Made by a program: the position numbers and the translations under genes. Positions 2,296 through 35,618 of a DNA stretch of 36,124 nucleotides are shown here, piece by piece. Origin of the DNA: a virus; the IMG/VR virus record IMGVR_UViG_3300049255_000117, positions 1-36,124 of that record, one strand, 5' to 3'. Position 1 is the stretch's first letter. Each line of letters begins with the position of its first letter. The notes under the pieces were generated by a model. It saw only the letters and a program-made list of their open reading frames with translations. It did not search any database and was not told the DNA's origin.

Positions 2296-2319
2296 GGTCG
2301 TGACCTGATGCTGTTCATA
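2296..2319 (+). promoter_or_regulatory. Putative late promoter P1 (GGTCGTGAC type), leaderless
   Basis: GGTCGTGAC is followed by A at +4 nt, T at +8 nt, and T/A at 14/15 nt after the octamer. The A/T pair falls at -11/-7 if transcription starts at A2319, which is also the A of the next gene's ATG. No Shine-Dalgarno sequence precedes that ATG. It lies in the 33-nt gap after the helicase gene. Promoter function is inferred from the shared pattern of nine sites. Confidence 0.7.
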
Positions 2320-2586: not shown

Positions 2587-2610
2587 GGTCGTGACGCGAC
2601 ACTCGTCGCA
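2587..2610 (+). promoter_or_regulatory. Putative late promoter P2 (GGTCGTGAC type), leaderless
   Basis: GGTCGTGAC, invariant A and T at +4 and +8 nt, and C/A at 14/15 nt; the predicted start base is A2610, the A of the prohead protease ATG. The octamer-to-ATG distance is 14 nt, as at P1, P3, P5 and P6. No Shine-Dalgarno sequence is present. Confidence 0.72.
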
Positions 2611-7835: not shown

Positions 7836-9158
7836 ATGGCATTCACTAGCACATTTGCACGTCGTCCTTCACGCAAGTCGCTGCGTACCAAAAGTGCGCC
7901 CGATAAAAAGGCCCCCTATATATTTGCAAATACGATATTGGACATCATATTGAAGGTGTCCGCTATTTCAATAGTGTTTGGTGGATTGGTTGTGAAACAG
8001 TTTCTGAATCAGATGGGATTTGGATATCTATTCCCGACAGTTATCGGGTCCCAAGGTGCGCTGCTCGCGATCATTTTTAGCCTTGGGGTTGTTGTCTTCG
8101 TCGTTTGCCTTACATGGTTCTTCACACCGTGGTTGGTATTAAAAGCGAAGGAATATGGATTGAAGGAGGGCGTGTCGCCCACGCTTTTTAGCCATCGAGC
8201 CCTGATTGGCCTCCTCACTGGGACGCCAGCGGTGATGTTGGCACTTCTTTGCTATGTACCGGCAGGTTCGGCGACCTTTTCCGTGTTGGCCGTTCCTGTG
8301 ATGATGGCGATTTTTTGGATTATAAGTGATACGAAAACGAGGGAGACAGTAACTTCGCTATTTCACCTCGATACCGCAACGCGACTCGCGTTTGCTTCTA
8401 CAGGCTCAACACAAAGCCCGTCAACACCAAGTGCTGAACTTATCAGTCGCCATCTACGCACGTGGCTGAAGCTAATGCTCTTTAAGATCAAGGGTTGGAC
8501 GGCAGACGATAAAAAAGTTGTTCGTTTGGTTTTAGTATTGATTTTTTTGGAATCGGTCGCAAACATATTTTCAATGCTGCCGTGGGTATTCTTGATCAAT
8601 GTCATTCATCGGCAACTTGAGGTTAGTGCAGATCCAAACTACATTGAATCCATCGGGATGTTACTGCTTTCCCTATGGATATTGCTTTTTGGCTTGGTAA
8701 GCGGCGGCATCACGGCATCGGTTAATATGCAAATGAAAGAGAGTGGTGAAAGAGGCTTGCAGGCACTGGTAGGTGCTATTGCAGGTTTAGCTTTTGTCGT
8801 GACTCTGTTAGCACCAACTTCCATTATTGAGGCGGCGATGTATGCAGCATCGATTCGGGAAAATCCGAATCAGGCACATTGGTATGCTATCGACGATGCT
8901 GCCTATGAAAAGCTGATGCCCGGAACTAATAAAATTCCTTTTCGAAGGATAGGTGATTCACACTCTCGGTACATATGTGCGTATAGTCCATTTTTATATG
9001 CCGACAAAAAAATTCTATGCGCACCGAGTGTTAAACACGCTAACGCAAATCAATGTGTCGTCATGACTGAAGCGGAGGCGCGGATAGTAGCACCTCCAAC
9101 AAGCACGGTAGAGTCGGCAGATGAGAAATATTGCCAAGCCCATCCGGTTTTAAAATAA
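7836..9158 (+). CDS. Multi-pass membrane protein, probable cargo (moron)
   Basis: Function unknown. The 440-residue protein has a basic N-terminus, then hydrophobic segments near 28-55, 68-98, 121-158, 228-257, 268-298 and 308-330, followed by a soluble C-terminal domain of about 100 residues with four cysteines (about 378, 394, 404 and 434). This suggests six or so membrane helices with an exposed tail. AGGGAA precedes the ATG. The gene is visibly AT-richer than the flanking structural genes and uses different codons, which suggests separate acquisition. It is not a recognisable virion gene. Superinfection exclusion, host membrane modification or abortive infection are candidate roles by position only. 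Confidence 0.75.
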   Translation: MAFTSTFARRPSRKSLRTKSAPDKKAPYIFANTILDIILKVSAISIVFGGLVVKQFLNQMGFGYLFPTVIGSQGALLAIIFSLGVVVFVVCLTWFFTPWLVLKAKEYGLKEGVSPTLFSHRALIGLLTGTPAVMLALLCYVPAGSATFSVLAVPVMMAIFWIISDTKTRETVTSLFHLDTATRLAFASTGSTQSPSTPSAELISRHLRTWLKLMLFKIKGWTADDKKVVRLVLVLIFLESVANIFSMLPWVFLINVIHRQLEVSADPNYIESIGMLLLSLWILLFGLVSGGITASVNMQMKESGERGLQALVGAIAGLAFVVTLLAPTSIIEAAMYAASIRENPNQAHWYAIDDAAYEKLMPGTNKIPFRRIGDSHSRYICAYSPFLYADKKILCAPSVKHANANQCVVMTEAEARIVAPPTSTVESADEKYCQAHPVLK

Positions 9159-9222: not shown

Positions 9223-10062
9223 TTACCGACAGAGTATGAATGCTTCCTTGATAGCTGATTCGGCAAGTGGGTGTAACTCGTCGACCACTTTCTTTGCCAA
9301 ATATAATCCCGGTTTCGCCGGAATCAACCATCCTTGGGAACCTTCCATCATCACCCGGAAGGTCATGTAGGTAGATCCGCCCGTTGACTCCTTCATCCTG
9401 ACCAGCCCTGCATACTTGCGCCGATCCGCTTTCGATTGATCGCGCAGCATCGCTGGTTTGATCCGTTCACCCCATTGGTAGTGGCTTTGATTGACCAGAT
9501 AAGCGGACTGGCTATTGTGACTCGACAGAAATGGCGTTTGCTTCTTTGCTGCGCTCATTCCTGTTTTCGCTGACAGGATCGTAAGTTGACCAGCCGGTCG
9601 CTGGCTCGCTCCAGTAACCGCGCTGTGCTTGAGATTTAACGCCATTTGTCCGATTGCTTCGGGCATGGATGGTGCGTGCGCATCAGAACCGGTCACATTG
9701 TGCCGCATGGGGATGATCAAAAATCTACGGCCATCCAGCGTTCGCCTGACTTTCGGGCTGGTATCGAGCATGCGTTTTAAATCGCGTGCCGGTCTGCCGG
9801 TTTCGATTTCCTCCGCGTATCGATAATCGCTACTTACTACTGCGGAGAATGGCCCTGTCATCTGCATTGTGATCGATGCGATGTACGGATTTTTCTCACC
9901 AGACCATAGTCGTGCATCGTAGACGGCACGCTGCCAGTTCGCCTTGGCCTGATTGGCGATTGCTTGCACTGCTTGCGTGACTCTGGGCAGTACGGTGCTG
10001 TTGACGATTTTCGTAACCTCGTCGGCAGATGGCAGATCAAGCGTGAACGTGTATTGCGTCAT
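9223..10062 (-). CDS. Tail-completion (HK97 gp10-like) protein, inverted
   Basis: This 279-residue protein resembles phage tail-completion/neck proteins of the HK97 gp10 type: an N-terminal helix with AIANQAKANWQRAV, the strand-turn YRYAEEIETGRPARDLK (about 84-100), and a C-terminal helix PGLYLAKKVVDELHP before AIKEAF. GGGAGGA five bases before ATG 10062 decides the start; the longer reading from 10092 has no support. It lies on the opposite strand from every neighbouring structural gene, between the membrane-protein cargo and the tail-terminator gene. A divergent copy of the late promoter element (10073-10096) lies directly upstream, so it should be expressed late despite its orientation. 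Confidence 0.7.
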   Translation of the reverse strand: MTQYTFTLDLPSADEVTKIVNSTVLPRVTQAVQAIANQAKANWQRAVYDARLWSGEKNPYIASITMQMTGPFSAVVSSDYRYAEEIETGRPARDLKRMLDTSPKVRRTLDGRRFLIIPMRHNVTGSDAHAPSMPEAIGQMALNLKHSAVTGASQRPAGQLTILSAKTGMSAAKKQTPFLSSHNSQSAYLVNQSHYQWGERIKPAMLRDQSKADRRKYAGLVRMKESTGGSTYMTFRVMMEGSQGWLIPAKPGLYLAKKVVDELHPLAESAIKEAFILCR

Positions 10063-10072
10063 AGATTCCTCC

Positions 10073-10096
10073 CGCGTCGATCCTCGCATCACGTCT
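10073..10096 (-). promoter_or_regulatory. Putative late promoter P9, divergent minus-strand copy
   Basis: On the minus strand the octamer reads GACGTGAT (one and two changes from the other copies), with A at +4 nt, T at +8 nt, and C/G at 14/15 nt. The predicted start is 10073, giving an 11-nt leader, GGGAGGAATCT, that ends at ATG 10062 and carries the Shine-Dalgarno sequence. It abuts plus-strand P3 back to back. Confidence 0.55.
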
Positions 10097-10119
10097 GTCG
10101 TGACGCCAGTATCGGCGCA
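10096..10119 (+). promoter_or_regulatory. Putative late promoter P3 (TGTCGTGAC type), leaderless
   Basis: TGTCGTGAC, then invariant A and T at +4 and +8 nt and C/A at 14/15 nt; the predicted start A10119 is the first base of the tail-terminator gene's ATG. No Shine-Dalgarno sequence. It restarts rightward transcription after the inverted gene and cargo island 1. Confidence 0.72.
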
Positions 10120-10955
10120 TGATCGTCAATATCACCCCCATCGCCGTTGGCAATGCCTTGCGCGTGTTTCTGGAGCCACCAGCAACGGCTGTGAGCTGGG
10201 TTCTGCTCAGAAATTCGACTGGTACCTTTTCAGGGCCGACCGATCCGTCTTCCGTGGTGGTATTCCACGGCAACAGTGAGACGGTCGCGCTCGATGCCGA
10301 TCATCTGCTTAATGGCGTGACCGTCCACTACGGCGTCTTCTACTTCGACGGATCTGAGTGGACGACGGGTAACGCCGCCTCCGGCACGCCGCAGACGACT
10401 TATGCCGATCAGAGCATCGATGTCCTGACCATCGTGCGTGAGCGGCTGGATTGGGGCTTGCAGGCCGAAATATCGGCGGGAGCCCTGTCACCGGCGATGG
10501 GTGTGATTGCGGTCTTGAATGCACCGCCTGTGTTCGAACAAACGAGCTGGCCGGTGGTGACTGTCCACGTTGCATCAGATGCCAGCGGCGCGCGCGCTGT
10601 CGGCGAGATGCCATTTCCCGATGTTGTAGATGCTGAATCTGGCAACTGGATCGAGTCGCAAGGCTGGCTCGCTCGCGTGCAACTCACGATAGTGGGCTGG
10701 AGCAAGAACGCCGACGAACGAATCGCACTGCGCAAAGCCTTGCGCAAGATCGTACTCGGCAACCTGGAAGTGTTCGATTCCTTCGGCCTCATCAACATCG
10801 ATTTCTCACAACAGGATATCGATGAACTGTCGTCCTATCCGGCGCCGGTCTACCAGTCCTACTGCACGTTTTCCTGCCAGGCGCCAGCCGGTGTTGCCGA
10901 TAGGGTCGCTCCGACCATGTTGGCGCCGCAAACCACCATCACTCCCGTCTTTTAA
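10119..10955 (+). CDS. Probable tail terminator / tail-completion protein
   Basis: This 278-residue protein is the first of the rightward tail genes. The N-terminal 90 residues are beta-rich and resemble an Ig-like accessory domain (VSWVLLRNSTGTFSG, VVFHGNSETVALD). The C-terminal part, from about 100, has the helix VLTIVRERLDWGLQ, strands around PVVTVHVASD, and a helix ERIALRKALRKIVLGNLEVF, as in gpU-type tail terminators that cap the tube and join it to the head. No Shine-Dalgarno sequence is visible; the ATG coincides with the predicted P3 start. Assignment is by gene order and fold-like pattern rather than a diagnostic motif. Confidence 0.55.
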   Translation: MIVNITPIAVGNALRVFLEPPATAVSWVLLRNSTGTFSGPTDPSSVVVFHGNSETVALDADHLLNGVTVHYGVFYFDGSEWTTGNAASGTPQTTYADQSIDVLTIVRERLDWGLQAEISAGALSPAMGVIAVLNAPPVFEQTSWPVVTVHVASDASGARAVGEMPFPDVVDAESGNWIESQGWLARVQLTIVGWSKNADERIALRKALRKIVLGNLEVFDSFGLINIDFSQQDIDELSSYPAPVYQSYCTFSCQAPAGVADRVAPTMLAPQTTITPVF

Positions 10956-14044: not shown

Positions 14045-15250
14045 TTAGTTAAAGGCGATGTTTTGAATCCATACAGAAAATTCTGCAATCCCGAGAATTG
14101 CGCCATCCTTTGTGTTTTGCTTCGGATGGCAATCTAACGCGAGCAATTGTGAATTGTTTTCAGGCCACGAGCTGGCATTTTGCTGACATATTGAATCCGG
14201 CCATCTCGCCGAGTCCTTCAAGGAAAATTGCGTGCCTATCTCTTCGATGTCCCGATCCGTGTATCCGAGATCGATAAACGCGCGAATACCAAAGCTAATT
14301 TGTCTGTTTTTGGTGCTATCGTCTTCGGGCAGATATGTCAGCACAACATGCGAATTGCCTTTCCAGTGATTGGGGAAAAACCGCAATGCTTTCTGCCCTT
14401 TCCAGTCTGTCGTGTTGGTTCGGATTGTGGTATCGATACCCGTTGATAGGAACTTATTGGCGATAGCTATCCGTGTTTCCGTCTGTAGTTGCGTCGAGAA
14501 TGACTGGAGTAATTCATTTGCCTTAAATAAATTTCGATAGTTCGCCAATACAAAATTTTCGGATTCGTTACTCATGATCGCATTTTCTATAGGAGACGAT
14601 AATTCGCTGAGATGTGACAGAAATTCCTGATAAAACACCTGCCACTTGCTGATCTGACTTGTCGCGATTTCTCTTCCATACATGGAGAGCGCCTGCGCAA
14701 CGAGTTCTCCATAACTGACGACTGGCCAGCCGGCAGGTACGTCATCCGAGCGTGAAGTTGGTCGAAGAACGCATTTCAGGATACGTCCTTCCTCGGCGCG
14801 GCTCGCGAGCAAGGCGTCATAGGTTCCGAACGGATTGTCATGCGCGCTTGCCCATACTTTGTTTTCGATGCCGAGCACAAAATTCCCATCACCAAGAACG
14901 ATATCTAACCTTTTGTATCCCTGATCTTCACGATCTCGAAACGATACCTCCCTTTCCGCTTTGACGGCGGTCCAGTCGATTGCAATGTCGGCCGAGGAGG
15001 CTTTTCTGGCGGCAAGACAGGCAATTAGCGCTTTTGCGAGCCAGGGTGGTACATTTTTTTGCCCACCCATAAATAGAAGCATCAGATCGGACGTGGGGTT
15101 TTCAAGATATCCGCTCCCGCCGACATCAAAAAAATTTGGCTCTTTGGCGGAAATCGGTGGCAGGGACTTTATATCGGCTAACACGGTAGCCAGAGCAGTC
15201 AATTCGAAGCTATTCATACTGGTTATTTCCGCATTTGAATCAATCACCAT
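14045..15250 (-). CDS. PD-(D/E)XK superfamily nuclease (PDDEXK_4-like)
   Basis: This 401-residue protein has the nuclease core seen in PDDEXK_4-type proteins: YLENPTSDLMLLFM (48-61), an acidic-basic lead-in, RLDIVLG with Asp116, and GIENK with Glu129 and Lys131, giving D-(X)12-EXK. The C-terminal 200 residues are helical and include a Trp-rich region, with no further motif recognised. Starts at 15250 and at the internal Met12 (15217) are both possible; neither has a strong ribosome-binding site. The gene is AT-richer than the structural genes and lies antisense to them. It precedes the GIY-YIG gene, forming a two-nuclease cassette. The role is unknown; defence or inter-phage competition is inferred from domain type and location. 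Confidence 0.8.
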   Translation of the reverse strand: MVIDSNAEITSMNSFELTALATVLADIKSLPPISAKEPNFFDVGGSGYLENPTSDLMLLFMGGQKNVPPWLAKALIACLAARKASSADIAIDWTAVKAEREVSFRDREDQGYKRLDIVLGDGNFVLGIENKVWASAHDNPFGTYDALLASRAEEGRILKCVLRPTSRSDDVPAGWPVVSYGELVAQALSMYGREIATSQISKWQVFYQEFLSHLSELSSPIENAIMSNESENFVLANYRNLFKANELLQSFSTQLQTETRIAIANKFLSTGIDTTIRTNTTDWKGQKALRFFPNHWKGNSHVVLTYLPEDDSTKNRQISFGIRAFIDLGYTDRDIEEIGTQFSLKDSARWPDSICQQNASSWPENNSQLLALDCHPKQNTKDGAILGIAEFSVWIQNIAFN

Positions 15251-15327: not shown

Positions 15328-15351
15328 GTCGTGACGCAATGATGTTTTTAT
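15328..15351 (+). promoter_or_regulatory. Putative late promoter P4 (TGTCGTGAC type)
   Basis: TGTCGTGAC, with A at +4 nt, T at +8 nt, and T/A at 14/15 nt. The predicted start is A15351, here followed by TC rather than TG, giving a 38-nt leader before the chaperone ATG. It restarts rightward transcription immediately after the minus-strand nuclease cassette. Confidence 0.65.
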
Positions 15352-15388: not shown

Positions 15389-15778
15389 ATGCCTCGCTCC
15401 CCACATGCTACGGATTTCACGGTCGATGTCGACCGCCTTGGCCGTTTCACGTTCGCCCGCCGCACCATCGGCGACCAGTTCAAGATACGCGGTCGCTATA
15501 ACCAGATTACCGATGGGTTTTACGACGCCGACGGCAACATGGCCGACATGTCGGCGCTGGCCTATGTGACGATCCAGACGCTCCTGGTATCCGCCCCATC
15601 GGGTTTCGATCTGGATGCGCTCGATCCGCTCATCGACGACGAGTTCGAGACCAAGATCGTTGCGATCTGGCGTGCGCTCCGTCAAAAGGAGCTCTCTTTT
15701 CGACCGCAACCGAACCAGGGCAGCGAAGCAGCAGGGGCGGCTGCTTGCGAACACGTATCACCTGTGGTTCCGCGATAA
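15389..15778 (+). CDS. Tail assembly chaperone, short (G/E-like) product
   Basis: This 129-residue product lies between the tube and tape-measure genes, where nearly all long-tailed phages encode a chaperone read in two lengths by programmed frameshift. The protein has the usual compact start (FTVDVDRLGRFTFARRTIGDQF) and helices through ETKIVAIWRAL. After about residue 104 the sequence in this frame becomes low-quality, while the overlapping frame becomes clearly protein-like, as expected for a frameshift pair. It would assist folding of the tape measure. The ATG has no clear Shine-Dalgarno sequence. Confidence 0.7.
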   Translation: MPRSPHATDFTVDVDRLGRFTFARRTIGDQFKIRGRYNQITDGFYDADGNMADMSALAYVTIQTLLVSAPSGFDLDALDPLIDDEFETKIVAIWRALRQKELSFRPQPNQGSEAAGAAACEHVSPVVPR

Positions 15779-16043
15779 ATACCGGCTCGCGCCAACCGAC
15801 CTGCGCTTTCTGGCCGCGACTGATGAACAGATCGAGGCCGAATTCTGGGCCTATCAGTATCAGTCCAATAAAGCCAAGGAAGAAGTCGAAGACGACGACT
15901 TCGATCTTTCCGACGTGCTTGCCGGTTTCGAGCGCAATGCCACTACTTCGCCTATGCAGCAAGCATCGCAACCCGTAAAACCGAGTCAGGCAACTTTGCC
16001 GGTCGACGCCGTCTCCGACTGGGAGGAGGTCGACCTTGGCTGA
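15615..16043 (+). CDS. Tail chaperone extension (GT/E'-like), made by frameshift
   Basis: The downstream frame is +1 (equivalently -2) relative to the chaperone and overlaps it through 15778. The convincing protein part begins around AAKQQGRLLANTYHLWFRDKYRL and continues through an acidic EEVEDDDFDLSD segment to a disordered C-terminus. It most likely exists only as a fusion, about 217 residues from 15389. Candidate slip sites: TTT-C at 15698-15701, where tRNA-Phe can re-pair on TTC, before CGA and six nt after an AAGGAG; or GGGG at 15734-15737. A TCTCTCT run at 15693 also permits a -2 slip. The ATG at 15615 is not expected to be used. Its end overlaps the tape-measure start. Confidence 0.7.
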   Translation: MRSIRSSTTSSRPRSLRSGVRSVKRSSLFDRNRTRAAKQQGRLLANTYHLWFRDKYRLAPTDLRFLAATDEQIEAEFWAYQYQSNKAKEEVEDDDFDLSDVLAGFERNATTSPMQQASQPVKPSQATLPVDAVSDWEEVDLG

Positions 16044-21372: not shown

Positions 21373-22101
21373 TCATAGTGATAAAAATTTGCTTTGTCCA
21401 ACATCCCACCTTTTAGTTGGACCACTAAGACGAGACAGAATGCCATCCAATGTATTACGTAAAGATCCATAGGAGGCTAATACCGCTGATACGGTAGCTT
21501 TACCAGGACCCGCGTGAGTGTTGGCATATGTCAAGGCGTTTGCCAGCGACATTGGTGTATGACGCGTAGCGGCACTTGCATTGCGAATTACAGTCGGTGT
21601 CGCGATATAAAAGGCGATTGCCGTACTGTCGACAAGGTTGTTCATCAAGTCATCGAAGCTTGCTAGTACAGATCTTTTCCAGGCGGCTGTGCCGCCTCCA
21701 ATATATCTATCCTCTCCTCCTGCATTAAATCCGGTGCTAACAATCTCGCATAGCTGCCATTGCAGGCGGCTTGAGTATCCTCCAAACATATAGGAATGTT
21801 CGTCTGGTTCGGCAACTCCCGTGCGCTGGGTCAACGGCGGAGCGGCGCCGTGCCCCAGGTTAACGCCCGCCAGACCGTTCCACACCATGGCGAGCGTGGA
21901 GTCATAAGACGCGATCCGATGAGCCACAAGAGCACCACCTCCAAAGATTTCCTGGAAAGCTGTGTTAATTGCGCCAATTACATCGCCGAATATGTGATCA
22001 CCTTGCAAAGGTGCCAGGGAGGGGGCGGCTGCAGCGACCGGGGGCGCAGGCAAGTTTACACCGACAGGATTTGGGTAAGTGCCATTGCGGAGTAGAGTCA
22101 T
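21373..22101 (-). CDS. Unknown protein, probable cargo
   Basis: This 242-residue protein lies on the strand opposite the baseplate genes, converging on the spike gene. It has an N-terminal Pro/Ala-rich stretch (about 10-34), helices around IGAINTAFQEIFGG, and aromatic central segments (HSYMFGGYSSRLQWQLCEIV). It has no membrane segment long enough to be clear and no motif I recognise. No strong Shine-Dalgarno sequence precedes the ATG. Its upstream region is rich in inverted repeats. It interrupts the spike-to-wedge gene order, and rightward transcription has a late promoter element beyond it, the same arrangement as the other two cargo islands. It could be a virion protein or a host-modifying protein. 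Confidence 0.55.
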   Translation of the reverse strand: MTLLRNGTYPNPVGVNLPAPPVAAAAPSLAPLQGDHIFGDVIGAINTAFQEIFGGGALVAHRIASYDSTLAMVWNGLAGVNLGHGAAPPLTQRTGVAEPDEHSYMFGGYSSRLQWQLCEIVSTGFNAGGEDRYIGGGTAAWKRSVLASFDDLMNNLVDSTAIAFYIATPTVIRNASAATRHTPMSLANALTYANTHAGPGKATVSAVLASYGSLRNTLDGILSRLSGPTKRWDVGQSKFLSL

Positions 22102-22444
22102 AGTATGTCCGTGAATGTTTCTGTGAATAAGATTTGGGCAATGCTCTGATGAATTGCCCCTTGGGGCGATATATTGGATAAATTCGGGCGATCCAAATAC
22201 AGAGCTTGAGAGCGTACTGTTGTCTGGAAAATAAAATTTTCAGCTATGTTAGCCATTTGTCTTTACTGCGACAATCTCAATCAGTGATCTGATTGTGGTT
22301 CTTTCTAACCATTTGTGGCTGTGCGTGGTTAAACGATCGGTTCAACCGAGTAGGCGTCCAGAACCTAATGTAAGGGCTGTGATAGACGTACTGCTACAAA
22401 TGCTCCCTCGGTGCATCTTAGTGTCGTGACGACAAAATCGGGCT
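22102..22444. other. Repeat-rich regulatory gap between diverging genes
   Basis: This 343-nt stretch has no convincing gene. From left: GCCCCTTGGGGC at 22156-22167 (extends to 22153-22170 with one mismatch), TTGGAT/ATCCAA at 22174-22179 and 22191-22196, a 7-bp stem CAATCAG-TGAT-CTGATTG at 22278-22295, and two copies of a YTARCCATTTGT direct repeat on either side of that stem. Late promoter P5 is at the right end. The leftward promoter of the 21373-22101 gene must also lie here. These repeats may be operators. Confidence 0.5.
22278..22295. repeat. 7-bp inverted repeat flanked by a direct repeat
   Basis: CAATCAG and CTGATTG are perfect arms around TGAT; an alternative pairing ACAATC/GATTGT shifts the stem. 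TTAGCCATTTGT and CTAACCATTTGT lie on the two sides. This could be a regulator binding site or an RNA hairpin. Confidence 0.4.
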
Positions 22445-25440: not shown

Positions 25441-26315
25441 GACTCACGCAACGCCTGGTTAATTACCTGCATCGCGTGTTCGATCGCAGTCCCTCGGCAT
25501 TCATTGCACTGCGCATCAACTGCAACGATAGCAGGATGACATGGCAGATTCGCGATGCCGTGCTCACAGTCACACCGACTGGTGGCTTGGCTTCTCCATT
25601 GACGATCGACCTTACAGCCTATACGGTCGCTTCGTTGGCAGCCTATATTGCCGCGCAACCCGGTTATAGCGTTCCCGACGTCGACAGTTCCGCACTCTCT
25701 GTACTCAGTTCGCAGGTGCTGATCGACGGGAGAGGTGATGTGTCGCAGACCAACGGCGACCAGCTAGTTGGCTACACCAGCGTCGTTTGGTCTTACATGG
25801 ACGCGTGCGCCGCTGAACTTGAAGCAGCCGGATATCAGATCGGCCAGATGCTGCTGCAAATGAATACCGTCACAGCATCCGGGACATGGCTGGATCTGCA
25901 AGGAGCCTATTACGGCGTACCGCGCAATATCGGCGAAGCAGACGCACAATATGGGCCACGCATCATCGCGACGGTGATCCGGCCACTCGGCAATAATGTT
26001 GCCATCGAATCCGCGCTACGTGTGTTGAACGGCGGACTTGCCGTTTCCGTGGTCGATTACCCCGAGCTCGTCAACAACAGCTATGGGTTGTTCGATGTCG
26101 ATTTCGCCGTCAGCCTAGCGATGCTGCAAGTCGAGTCGATTGCGAACTGGCAGGCGGCGATCAGCACGATCATCAATGGCATGCGCGACGCCGGTACGCA
26201 TGTCAGGACGATCAATATTCAGGCACCTATCGAAGCAACCCTGAATCTGGGGGCGGTGGTCATTTCCGGACAAATCATCCGCATCTATCCCCAATTCCTA
26301 ACCGTGCCGACGTGA
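25437..26315 (+). CDS. Baseplate wedge / tail protein I-like
   Basis: This 292-residue protein follows the J-like gene with an ATGA overlap, the P2-type J-I order. Helices around VWSYMDACAAELEAAGYQIG lead to TWLDLQGAYYGVPRNIGE (about 148-165) and RIIATVIRPLGNNVAIESAL, typical of gpI-type proteins that bridge baseplate and fibre. An N-terminal 100-residue beta-rich extension is not part of the core family. It is followed by late promoter P6 and the fibre genes. Confidence 0.7.
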   Translation: MRLTQRLVNYLHRVFDRSPSAFIALRINCNDSRMTWQIRDAVLTVTPTGGLASPLTIDLTAYTVASLAAYIAAQPGYSVPDVDSSALSVLSSQVLIDGRGDVSQTNGDQLVGYTSVVWSYMDACAAELEAAGYQIGQMLLQMNTVTASGTWLDLQGAYYGVPRNIGEADAQYGPRIIATVIRPLGNNVAIESALRVLNGGLAVSVVDYPELVNNSYGLFDVDFAVSLAMLQVESIANWQAAISTIINGMRDAGTHVRTINIQAPIEATLNLGAVVISGQIIRIYPQFLTVPT

Positions 26316-26331
26316 CGGCATCATCGTCGCA
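26308..26331 (+). promoter_or_regulatory. Putative late promoter P6 (GACGTGAC variant), leaderless
   Basis: CGACGTGAC (one change in the octamer), with A at +4 nt, T at +8 nt, and C/A at 14/15 nt; the predicted start is the A of the fibre-gene ATG. The element overlaps the end of the I-like gene. No Shine-Dalgarno sequence. It would give the fibre genes their own transcript. Confidence 0.65.
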
Positions 26332-34229: not shown

Positions 34230-34253
34230 GGTCGTGACTGCAACATGCGCCCA
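34230..34253 (+). promoter_or_regulatory. Putative late promoter P7 (GGTCGTGAC type)
   Basis: GGTCGTGAC, with A at +4 nt, T at +8 nt, and C/A at 14/15 nt. The predicted start is A34253 (followed by TC), giving a 27-nt leader that carries GGGGA before ATG 34280. Confidence 0.62.
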
Positions 34254-34279
34254 TCGATTGCGTGCTGATGGGGAAATGG

Positions 34280-34750
34280 ATGTCTACCGGGATATTAGTG
34301 ACGAATGGCGGGCCACATAGCGCCGATAAATGGGCGGAAGCGACCGCGTCGCACATTGTTGATATTGCAGACCATATCGCAGGAGAGAAGCGCGGAGCGG
34401 CAATCCGGCTGCAAGCTGCAGTCATCGATATCCTGACCGCGCATCACACAACGGTGCAAGTTGGCGAGCGCAATGCCTTGCAGAATGTCGGTCATTCCCG
34501 CTTGTGCGCGCCGTTGAATCCAATCGACCATGTCGCCATCGATCAGGTCGCCTCGGAAATCATCGCCGCAGCCAACGGTACGCCATGGGCCGCCGAATTC
34601 AACGACCCCGAAGCGGCTATTCATTTGCAGGCAGTGCTTCGCCAGCATTTTGCGACCTCCATGCATATCGAGCGTAGTTGGCACGCCGACCGCAATCCGA
34701 ATGTTCCAGAAGCGATGCAGTTTCGGGCTACTCACAATCTAGGGGGCTGA
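34280..34750 (+). CDS. Unknown helical protein
   Basis: Start placed at ATG 34280 because GGGGA lies five bases upstream; GTG 34262 and ATG 34268 are in frame. The 156-residue protein is Ala/His-rich and mainly helical (ADKWAEATASHIVDIADHI, IRLQAAVIDILTAHH, HLQAVLRQHFATSMHIE), with no membrane segment. The many histidines (about 12) are notable but no catalytic motif is evident. It lies between the PAAR gene and a further tail-like protein, behind its own promoter element, so it may be a chaperone or assembly factor. Confidence 0.6.
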   Translation: MSTGILVTNGGPHSADKWAEATASHIVDIADHIAGEKRGAAIRLQAAVIDILTAHHTTVQVGERNALQNVGHSRLCAPLNPIDHVAIDQVASEIIAAANGTPWAAEFNDPEAAIHLQAVLRQHFATSMHIERSWHADRNPNVPEAMQFRATHNLGG

Positions 34751-35249: not shown

Positions 35250-35273
35250 GGTCGTGACATCAAGATCGAGTCA
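35250..35273 (+). promoter_or_regulatory. Putative late promoter P8 (GGTCGTGAC type)
   Basis: GGTCGTGAC, with A at +4 nt, T at +8 nt, and C/A at 14/15 nt. The predicted start A35273 leaves a 22-nt A/C-rich leader without Shine-Dalgarno sequence before ATG 35295. It would drive the lysis genes. Confidence 0.62.
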
Positions 35274-35294: not shown

Positions 35295-35618
35295 ATGGCT
35301 GACAACCTGGATATTGCCGTCGCAAGGCTTGACGAGCGCGTAAAGAACCACGACAGCTTCATCGAGCAGATCGCGAAGGATCTTGAGCGCATGGCTGCGG
35401 CATACGAAGAACTGGTGCGCAGCAATCAGCGTATCAGCCTGCTTGAACAGGATCTGGTCAACATGAAGGATGCGCAAAGGAAGCTTTCCGAGAGGGCCGA
35501 TGCCCGCGAGCTTGCGCAAAACCGTATCACCGGACTGGCGCTGTACGACGTCGTCAAGCTGCTGCTGGCAGTCGGCATGGGTATCGCTCTCGACCACTAC
35601 GGCATCCGTTTGCCGTAA
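35295..35618 (+). CDS. Holin-like / lysis-associated coiled-coil membrane protein
   Basis: This 107-residue protein. Residues 1-75 form a charged coiled coil (ARLDERVKNHDSFIEQIAKD, LLEQDLVNMKDAQRKLSER), and residues about 80-102 form one hydrophobic helix (ALYDVVKLLLAVGMGIAL), ending in a short tail. This layout, a cytoplasmic coiled coil plus a single C-terminal membrane helix, is that of XhlA-like and similar proteins beside phage endolysins. With the endolysin 44 nt downstream, a holin or holin-partner role is likely, although a single helix is minimal for a holin. Confidence 0.7.
   Translation: MADNLDIAVARLDERVKNHDSFIEQIAKDLERMAAAYEELVRSNQRISLLEQDLVNMKDAQRKLSERADARELAQNRITGLALYDVVKLLLAVGMGIALDHYGIRLP

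Follow-up and report, generated by a model that had tools for sequence, protein, structure and literature searches.

The window (i.e. the whole 36-kb stretch of DNA that was analysed, record IMGVR_UViG_3300049255_000117) corresponds to the structural part of a virus genome and carries a contractile-tailed gene set, comprising protease, major head protein, sheath, tube, tape measure, baseplate and fibre genes. It is a fragment of a myovirus of about 90 kb whose relatives include Touem01, Mecenats66, PHB04, Dolphis and fHe-Yen8-01. According to the head protein, the closest named phage is Pseudomonas phage Touem01 (62 %); other near phages are Morganella Mecenats66, Bordetella PHB04, Pseudomonas Dolphis and Jeremy, Aeromonas ST4, Yersinia fHe-Yen8-01 and Enterobacter phiT5282EW, and Thermus phages are more distant relatives. 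The head-tail connector slot, located between the connector genes and the tail sheath/tube genes, is occupied by a gene read from the opposite strand, which faces away from a neck gene whose homologues are annotated 'head-to-tail adaptor' in Dolphis, Jeremy and ST4 (Table 1).

Table 1. Features of the inverted-gene locus and motif copies in the window
Feature	Position	Strand	Score or remark
Weak motif copy GTCGTGACCTGATGCTGTTCAT, followed directly by ATG, 22 nt ahead of ORF 2319-2564	2297..2318	+	below the 7-bit listing
Motif copy starting exactly 22 nt ahead of the head maturation protease ATG	2588..2609	+	17.0 bits
Inverted tail-completion gene (putative), HK97 gp10-like predicted fold, phrog_16819	9223..10062	-	279 aa, ATG start
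11-nt predicted leader GGGAGGAATCT with GGAGG Shine-Dalgarno	10063..10073	-	sequence
P9, putative leftward promoter motif GACGTGATGCGAGGATCGACGC, -22 to -1	10074..10095	-	14.0 bits; predicted +1 at 10073
P3, putative rightward promoter motif GTCGTGACGCCAGTATCGGCGC, -22 to -1	10097..10118	+	23.7 bits; conserved in relatives
Neck gene, predicted P3 target	10119..10955	+	first gene of sheath/tube unit
Motif copy 5' of tail assembly chaperone ORFs; next ATG 15389, none at 22 nt	15328..15349	+	22.6 bits
Motif copy, ATG 22445 at 22 nt, virion/baseplate protein	22423..22444	+	21.4 bits
Motif copy, ATG 26331 at 22 nt, tail fibre/collar	26309..26330	+	18.6 bits
Motif copy 5' of ORF 34262-34750, no ATG at 22 nt	34231..34252	+	18.0 bits
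Weaker motif copy 5' of ORF 35295-35618, 44-nt spacing	35251..35272	+	13.4 bits

The product of the inverted gene had no match in Pfam, and its only PHROG matches, phrog_16819 and phrog_3734, are both of unknown function. Its AlphaFold (AF2) model (pLDDT 74) was compared with known structures and aligned with 108 of the 109 residues of chain 9mu2_P (Z 13.5, rmsd 3.1), the second-best structure match reaching Z 4.9; going by the entry title, we take 9mu2 chain P to be the SaPI1 neck/tail-completion protein. The Thermus homologue of the gene matches phrog_5, 'tail completion or Neck1 protein' (E 1.3e-4). Together with the connector slot, these matches support the assignment, proposed in the first-pass annotation, to the HK97 gp10-like tail-completion proteins, with which the protein shares a predicted core fold and a gene position between connector and sheath genes, and from which it differs by its length of 279 aa with an extra middle region, its location on the opposite strand and its lack of a Pfam match. 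The fHe-Yen8-01 record marks particle-associated proteins and leaves the homologue of the inverted gene unmarked, although this protein may be below detection.

Two copies of the motif GTCGTGAYGSCANNAT stand back to back in the 56-bp region between these two genes, with 5' ends at 10095 (-) and 10097 (+) separated by the single base 10096, as the first-pass annotation had described. Both were scored with a matrix trained on relatives only, the window being excluded; chance expectations are 0.025 sites of at least 20 bits per window and 0.55 sites of at least 13 bits for the whole window and both strands, and the empirical P of P9 is 0.0055 for the 60 nt upstream of the inverted gene. The pair is not a chance occurrence, since nearly every relative that carries the inverted gene has it too. 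The P3 motif starts exactly 22 nt ahead of ATG 10119 (GTCGTGACGCCAGTATCGGCGC followed directly by ATG). On the minus strand, the order is GACGTGATGCGAGGATCGACGC, GGGAGGAATCT and ATG 10062, so that both the leftward start proposed earlier at 10073 and the leader carrying a Shine-Dalgarno sequence agree with the predicted position and with the GGAGG found there; equivalent Shine-Dalgarno leaders, with distances of 33-39 nt, are found in phages fHe-Yen8-01 and phiT5282EW, contigs L160, L009 and L004, and others. The minus copy is, in the window as in the relatives, a systematically weaker variant, usually with G or A replacing T at -21. The two copies together form a near-palindrome at 10085-10106 (GCATCACG tctgt CGTGACGC). 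A generic scan for sigma70 promoters and terminators gave no match at 10060-10122, Rfam and tRNA scans of the window were empty, and the repeat search did not recover the motif as a family because its copies are too degenerate.

Further copies are distributed along the window (Table 1), and an ATG lies exactly 22 nt from the motif start at five sites (2297, which is weak, 2588, 10097, 22423 and 26309). At 15328 and 34231, two strong sites with no ATG at this distance, an ATC codon occupies the predicted start (15350 and 34253, respectively) in frame with the downstream ORF, which may reflect chance or unusual initiation.

In a set of 20 genomes or loci, 90 sites of at least 16 bits were retrieved, for about 3.5 expected from Markov shuffles. 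An ATG was located at offset 22 in 34 of them and at offset 23 in another 20 (i.e. 54/90), with about one at most other nearby offsets. The aligned sites give GTCGTGAYGSCANNAT with a pyrimidine (C/T) at -1 and A at +1; where the ATG is at 22 nt, A is present at -11 in 97 % of sites and T at -7 in 100 %, a pattern that, counted from the ATG, appears to be that of a bacterial -10 element. No position upstream of -23 was conserved in the 34 sites with the ATG at 22 nt, i.e. no -35 hexamer was detected, and only a faint bias was found upstream of the motif in the 19 aligned sites with an offset of 23 nt. When viral contigs were scanned blind for the motif followed by an ATG, at least 119 loci were retrieved, and clade proteins were found at 103/119 loci among the matches listed. 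Contigs picked solely by the zinc-finger protein considered below contained 53 sites for 3 expected, again with an ATG peak at 22/23. The motif and its spacing to the ATG come out of comparison; the motif matrix was seeded from exact TCGTGAY matches, but this seeding does not account for the ATG spacing, the independently chosen zinc-finger contigs or the independent-matrix result. Mecenats66 has almost no motif sites genome-wide and none at the inverted gene, and therefore the motif system is not universal in the clade.

Homologues of the inverted gene were found in the same slot and on the strand opposite to the operon in 9/9 proteobacterial phage records (PHB04 being counted twice, as two records), and the gene is present in the same connector slot in dozens of contigs. 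Co-oriented homologues in that slot were identified in Thermus phage phiMa and in contigs L007 and L169. As a tree built from the inverted gene by itself had too little resolution for counting flips, a concatenated tree of five neighbouring proteins was used; it requires at least two orientation flips, and a single clade of inverted phages was rejected (p-AU 0.004). Therefore, a local inversion plus a reversal or a second inversion occurred. The local inversion that the first-pass annotation asked about is consequently real, the same slot holding the gene in either orientation; a putative morphogenesis gene does face away from its operon here, but the rarity ascribed to this arrangement does not hold, since inversion is the rule within this phage group.

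Comparison of 80 distinct homologues of known orientation revealed a motif facing the gene in 64 of the 70 inverted cases and in none of the 10 co-oriented ones (Fisher p about 5e-9, a value that overstates independence given that the homologues are related, although the tree contains at least two orientation changes). Six inverted homologues had a motif score below 0. This association supports the earlier suggestion that a matching promoter ties the inverted gene to the late set, and the gene may accordingly be expressed late. In L169, the co-oriented gene lies in an ATGA overlap with its upstream neighbour and has no motif, and the next gene retains its promoter motif. The distance from motif start to ATG was 21-23 nt in 50 cases and, when longer, mostly 33-39 nt (11 cases), none of the inverted homologues with a motif having a distance of 24-32 nt; therefore, the leader is either absent or long enough for a Shine-Dalgarno sequence, as would be expected if transcription began 22 nt downstream of the 5' end of the motif. 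When pairs were scored with a matrix built from other genes, the operon-facing copy was the stronger one in 68 of 71, mainly because the copy towards the inverted gene had lost T at -21 and A at -8. Predicted divergent starts are at least 44 bp apart (median 49), so that two 22-bp elements may abut but do not overlap.

The best reading of these data, to which we assign a probability of about 0.85, is that the motif represents a self-contained late promoter class of about 22 bp that mainly yields leaderless mRNA, the two copies at this locus being divergent and mutually exclusive. Promoter function, timing and leaderless initiation are strongly supported predictions from sequence comparison; mutual exclusion and gene dosage we infer from the layout. 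Each promoter would comprise a GTCGTGAY box (-22 to -15) followed by G-S-C-A-N-N-A-T, a -10-like element with A-11 and T-7, then 6-7 nt, with a pyrimidine at -1 and an A at +1. From P3, the mRNA is predicted to begin on the A of ATG 10119, i.e. to be leaderless, whereas from P9 it would start 11 nt ahead of ATG 10062, the short leader supplying the Shine-Dalgarno sequence. The tail-completion gene would have been inverted inside its own slot in an ancestor of the clade, losing operon read-through and keeping or gaining a weaker copy of the late promoter, and it would thereby belong to the late regulon from the opposite strand. Simultaneous occupancy by two polymerases would be impossible because the 22-bp promoters abut; the -35 position of each is taken by the other promoter, and each would therefore function without a -35. 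The stronger P3 would be used more frequently, making mRNA of the sheath/tube operon abundant and that of the low-copy tail-completion protein scarce, so that competition may set the ratio of operon to tail-completion message.

Four other explanations were weighed. The compact, rigid layout of about 22 bp without a -35 matches the size of T7-type promoters and could thus indicate reading by a phage-encoded single-subunit (T7-like) RNA polymerase. However, the T7-type polymerase profile PF00940 had no match in nine relatives while the same search detected T7 polymerase at 1e-109, no obvious polymerase stands out among the large proteins shared by seven genomes, and A-11/T-7 is a sigma-type -10 pattern; we regard such a polymerase as very unlikely. 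A constant distance to the ATG could also mean ribosome contact, the motif being then a translational signal (an unusual ribosome-binding element) inside longer mRNAs. This is very unlikely in view of the A-11/T-7 pattern and the pyrimidine at -1 before A+1, of the absence of the motif where the gene is co-oriented with the operon, and of the distances themselves, as a pattern of either 21-23 nt or a Shine-Dalgarno-sized spacing is hard to explain in this way: longer distances jump to 33-39 nt with an ordinary Shine-Dalgarno sequence between motif and ATG, so the motif is no substitute for it.

The near-palindrome at 10085-10106 and the fact that the gene flipped more than once would be compatible with a role outside transcription initiation, either as a repressor/activator operator or as a recombination site. 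Such a role seems even less probable, since most genomic copies are single, directional and pointing into a gene, and since motif copies occur at one end only of the flipped gene, so they do not form a flanking pair of recombination sites. Finally, the window does contain other minus-strand cargo genes (14045-15250 and 21373-22101), and the inverted gene might be a mere moron or a mis-annotated ORF facing a motif by chance; yet no phage motif was found upstream of those two ORFs, whereas the inverted gene, with its predicted tail-completion fold, keeps the same slot in nine proteobacterial phage records and in dozens of contigs, which makes this explanation extremely improbable.

If the motif is a late promoter as preferred above, its recogniser would most likely be the RNA polymerase of the host, with a small phage factor redirecting it. 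Sigma70 region 2 (Sigma70_r2) was detected in none of seven relatives, the controls being positive and the window itself being a fragment, and Sigma70_r4 gave only sub-threshold matches in the relatives. A 1205-aa protein of Touem01 was at first suspected to be a polymerase and was ruled out by its ADP-ribosyltransferase domain. Touem01_00128, a zinc-finger protein of 160-190 residues, and its neighbour Touem01_00001, neither with an assigned function, are present in 7/7 genomes compared, and both types are confined to these phages among 50,697 records. An ordinary-looking TATACT lies upstream of the zinc-finger gene in Yersinia fHe-Yen8-01, Enterobacter phiT5282EW and Aeromonas ST4. A fold search with the zinc-finger protein retrieved no structural relative and family scans gave marginal matches only; it is its conservation, clade restriction and co-occurrence that make it a candidate late regulator, and proteins of the Touem01_00128 type could be the redirecting factor. 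We consider tentatively, and with more doubt than confidence, a new class in which a 22-bp box plus -10-like element without a -35 is read by host RNA polymerase redirected by this previously unrecognised zinc-finger protein, so that late mRNAs lacking a leader would be made throughout a large group of proteobacterial myoviruses, most of them uncultured, with the inverted tail gene dosed by back-to-back competition.

Short phage-specific late promoters and leaderless late mRNAs are already known separately. The gp36-dependent middle/late promoters of phiEco32 consist of the single element tAATGTAtA, and those of the late genes of phage 7-11 are likewise short and phage-specific (PMC8948821). 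The putative promoters described here resemble both in having a short phage-specific element, a start 6-8 bp downstream and an association with late genes of a Gram-negative phage, and resemble those of phiEco32 in having no separate -35; they differ in that a GTCGTGAY box of different sequence is joined to a -10-like CANNAT, in that no Sigma70 region 2 protein was found in seven relatives, and in that the predicted start coincides with the initiation codon. Most middle/late mRNAs of Thermus phage phiYS40 are leaderless, according to work cited in PMC3594737; in contrast to that Thermus host, leaderless initiation is here predicted in Pseudomonas, Bordetella, Aeromonas, Yersinia and Enterobacter phages. 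T7-type promoters are similarly compact and rigid, with about 20 bp and no -35, but no T7-like polymerase gene was found in nine relatives, and both the sequence and the -10 pattern are different.

No description of the motif was found in the papers available, the Mecenats66 and Touem01 papers making no mention of promoters, nor did we find any of a single 22-bp element that would combine both properties in proteobacterial myoviruses and be gained or lost with gene flips. The motif would allow late promoters and start sites to be recognised from sequence in a widespread phage group, for which no such rule was described in the literature found, and it predicts that ordinary proteobacteria translate late messages without leaders when infected. 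One tail gene that flipped repeatedly, with the promoter present or absent accordingly, provides a natural experiment on orientation versus promoter presence, and the zinc-finger protein, small and conserved, offers a testable candidate for a phage factor reprogramming host polymerase.

Several other genes of the window and of its relatives were examined. A low-GC ORF at 7836-9158 (+; 440 aa, many hydrophobic segments, no family match) separates the connector gene from the inverted gene; it is absent from this position in the named phages, and its product looks like a cargo (moron) membrane protein. Between the tube and tail-chaperone genes, a low-GC ORF at 14045-15250 (-) carries a PD-(D/E)XK nuclease domain (PF14281, 1e-22) and may be defence or competition cargo; the 242-aa ORF at 21373-22101 (-), within the baseplate region, has no assigned function. 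At the tail assembly chaperone position (15389-16043, +), two ORFs overlap in different frames, the second matching phrog_25000, and their offset would fit a +1 or -2 programmed frameshift. Proteins of about 1200 aa with a C-terminal ADP-ribosyltransferase domain, possibly injected Alt-like enzymes, are encoded in relatives (L010:14216-17833 and L012:22805-26521), the corresponding Touem01 gene lying immediately downstream of a late-motif copy. Two adjoining small cysteine-rich proteins (L011:41020-41565 and L010:84-398) are kept in 7/7 complete relatives compared and are restricted to the same clade among phage records.
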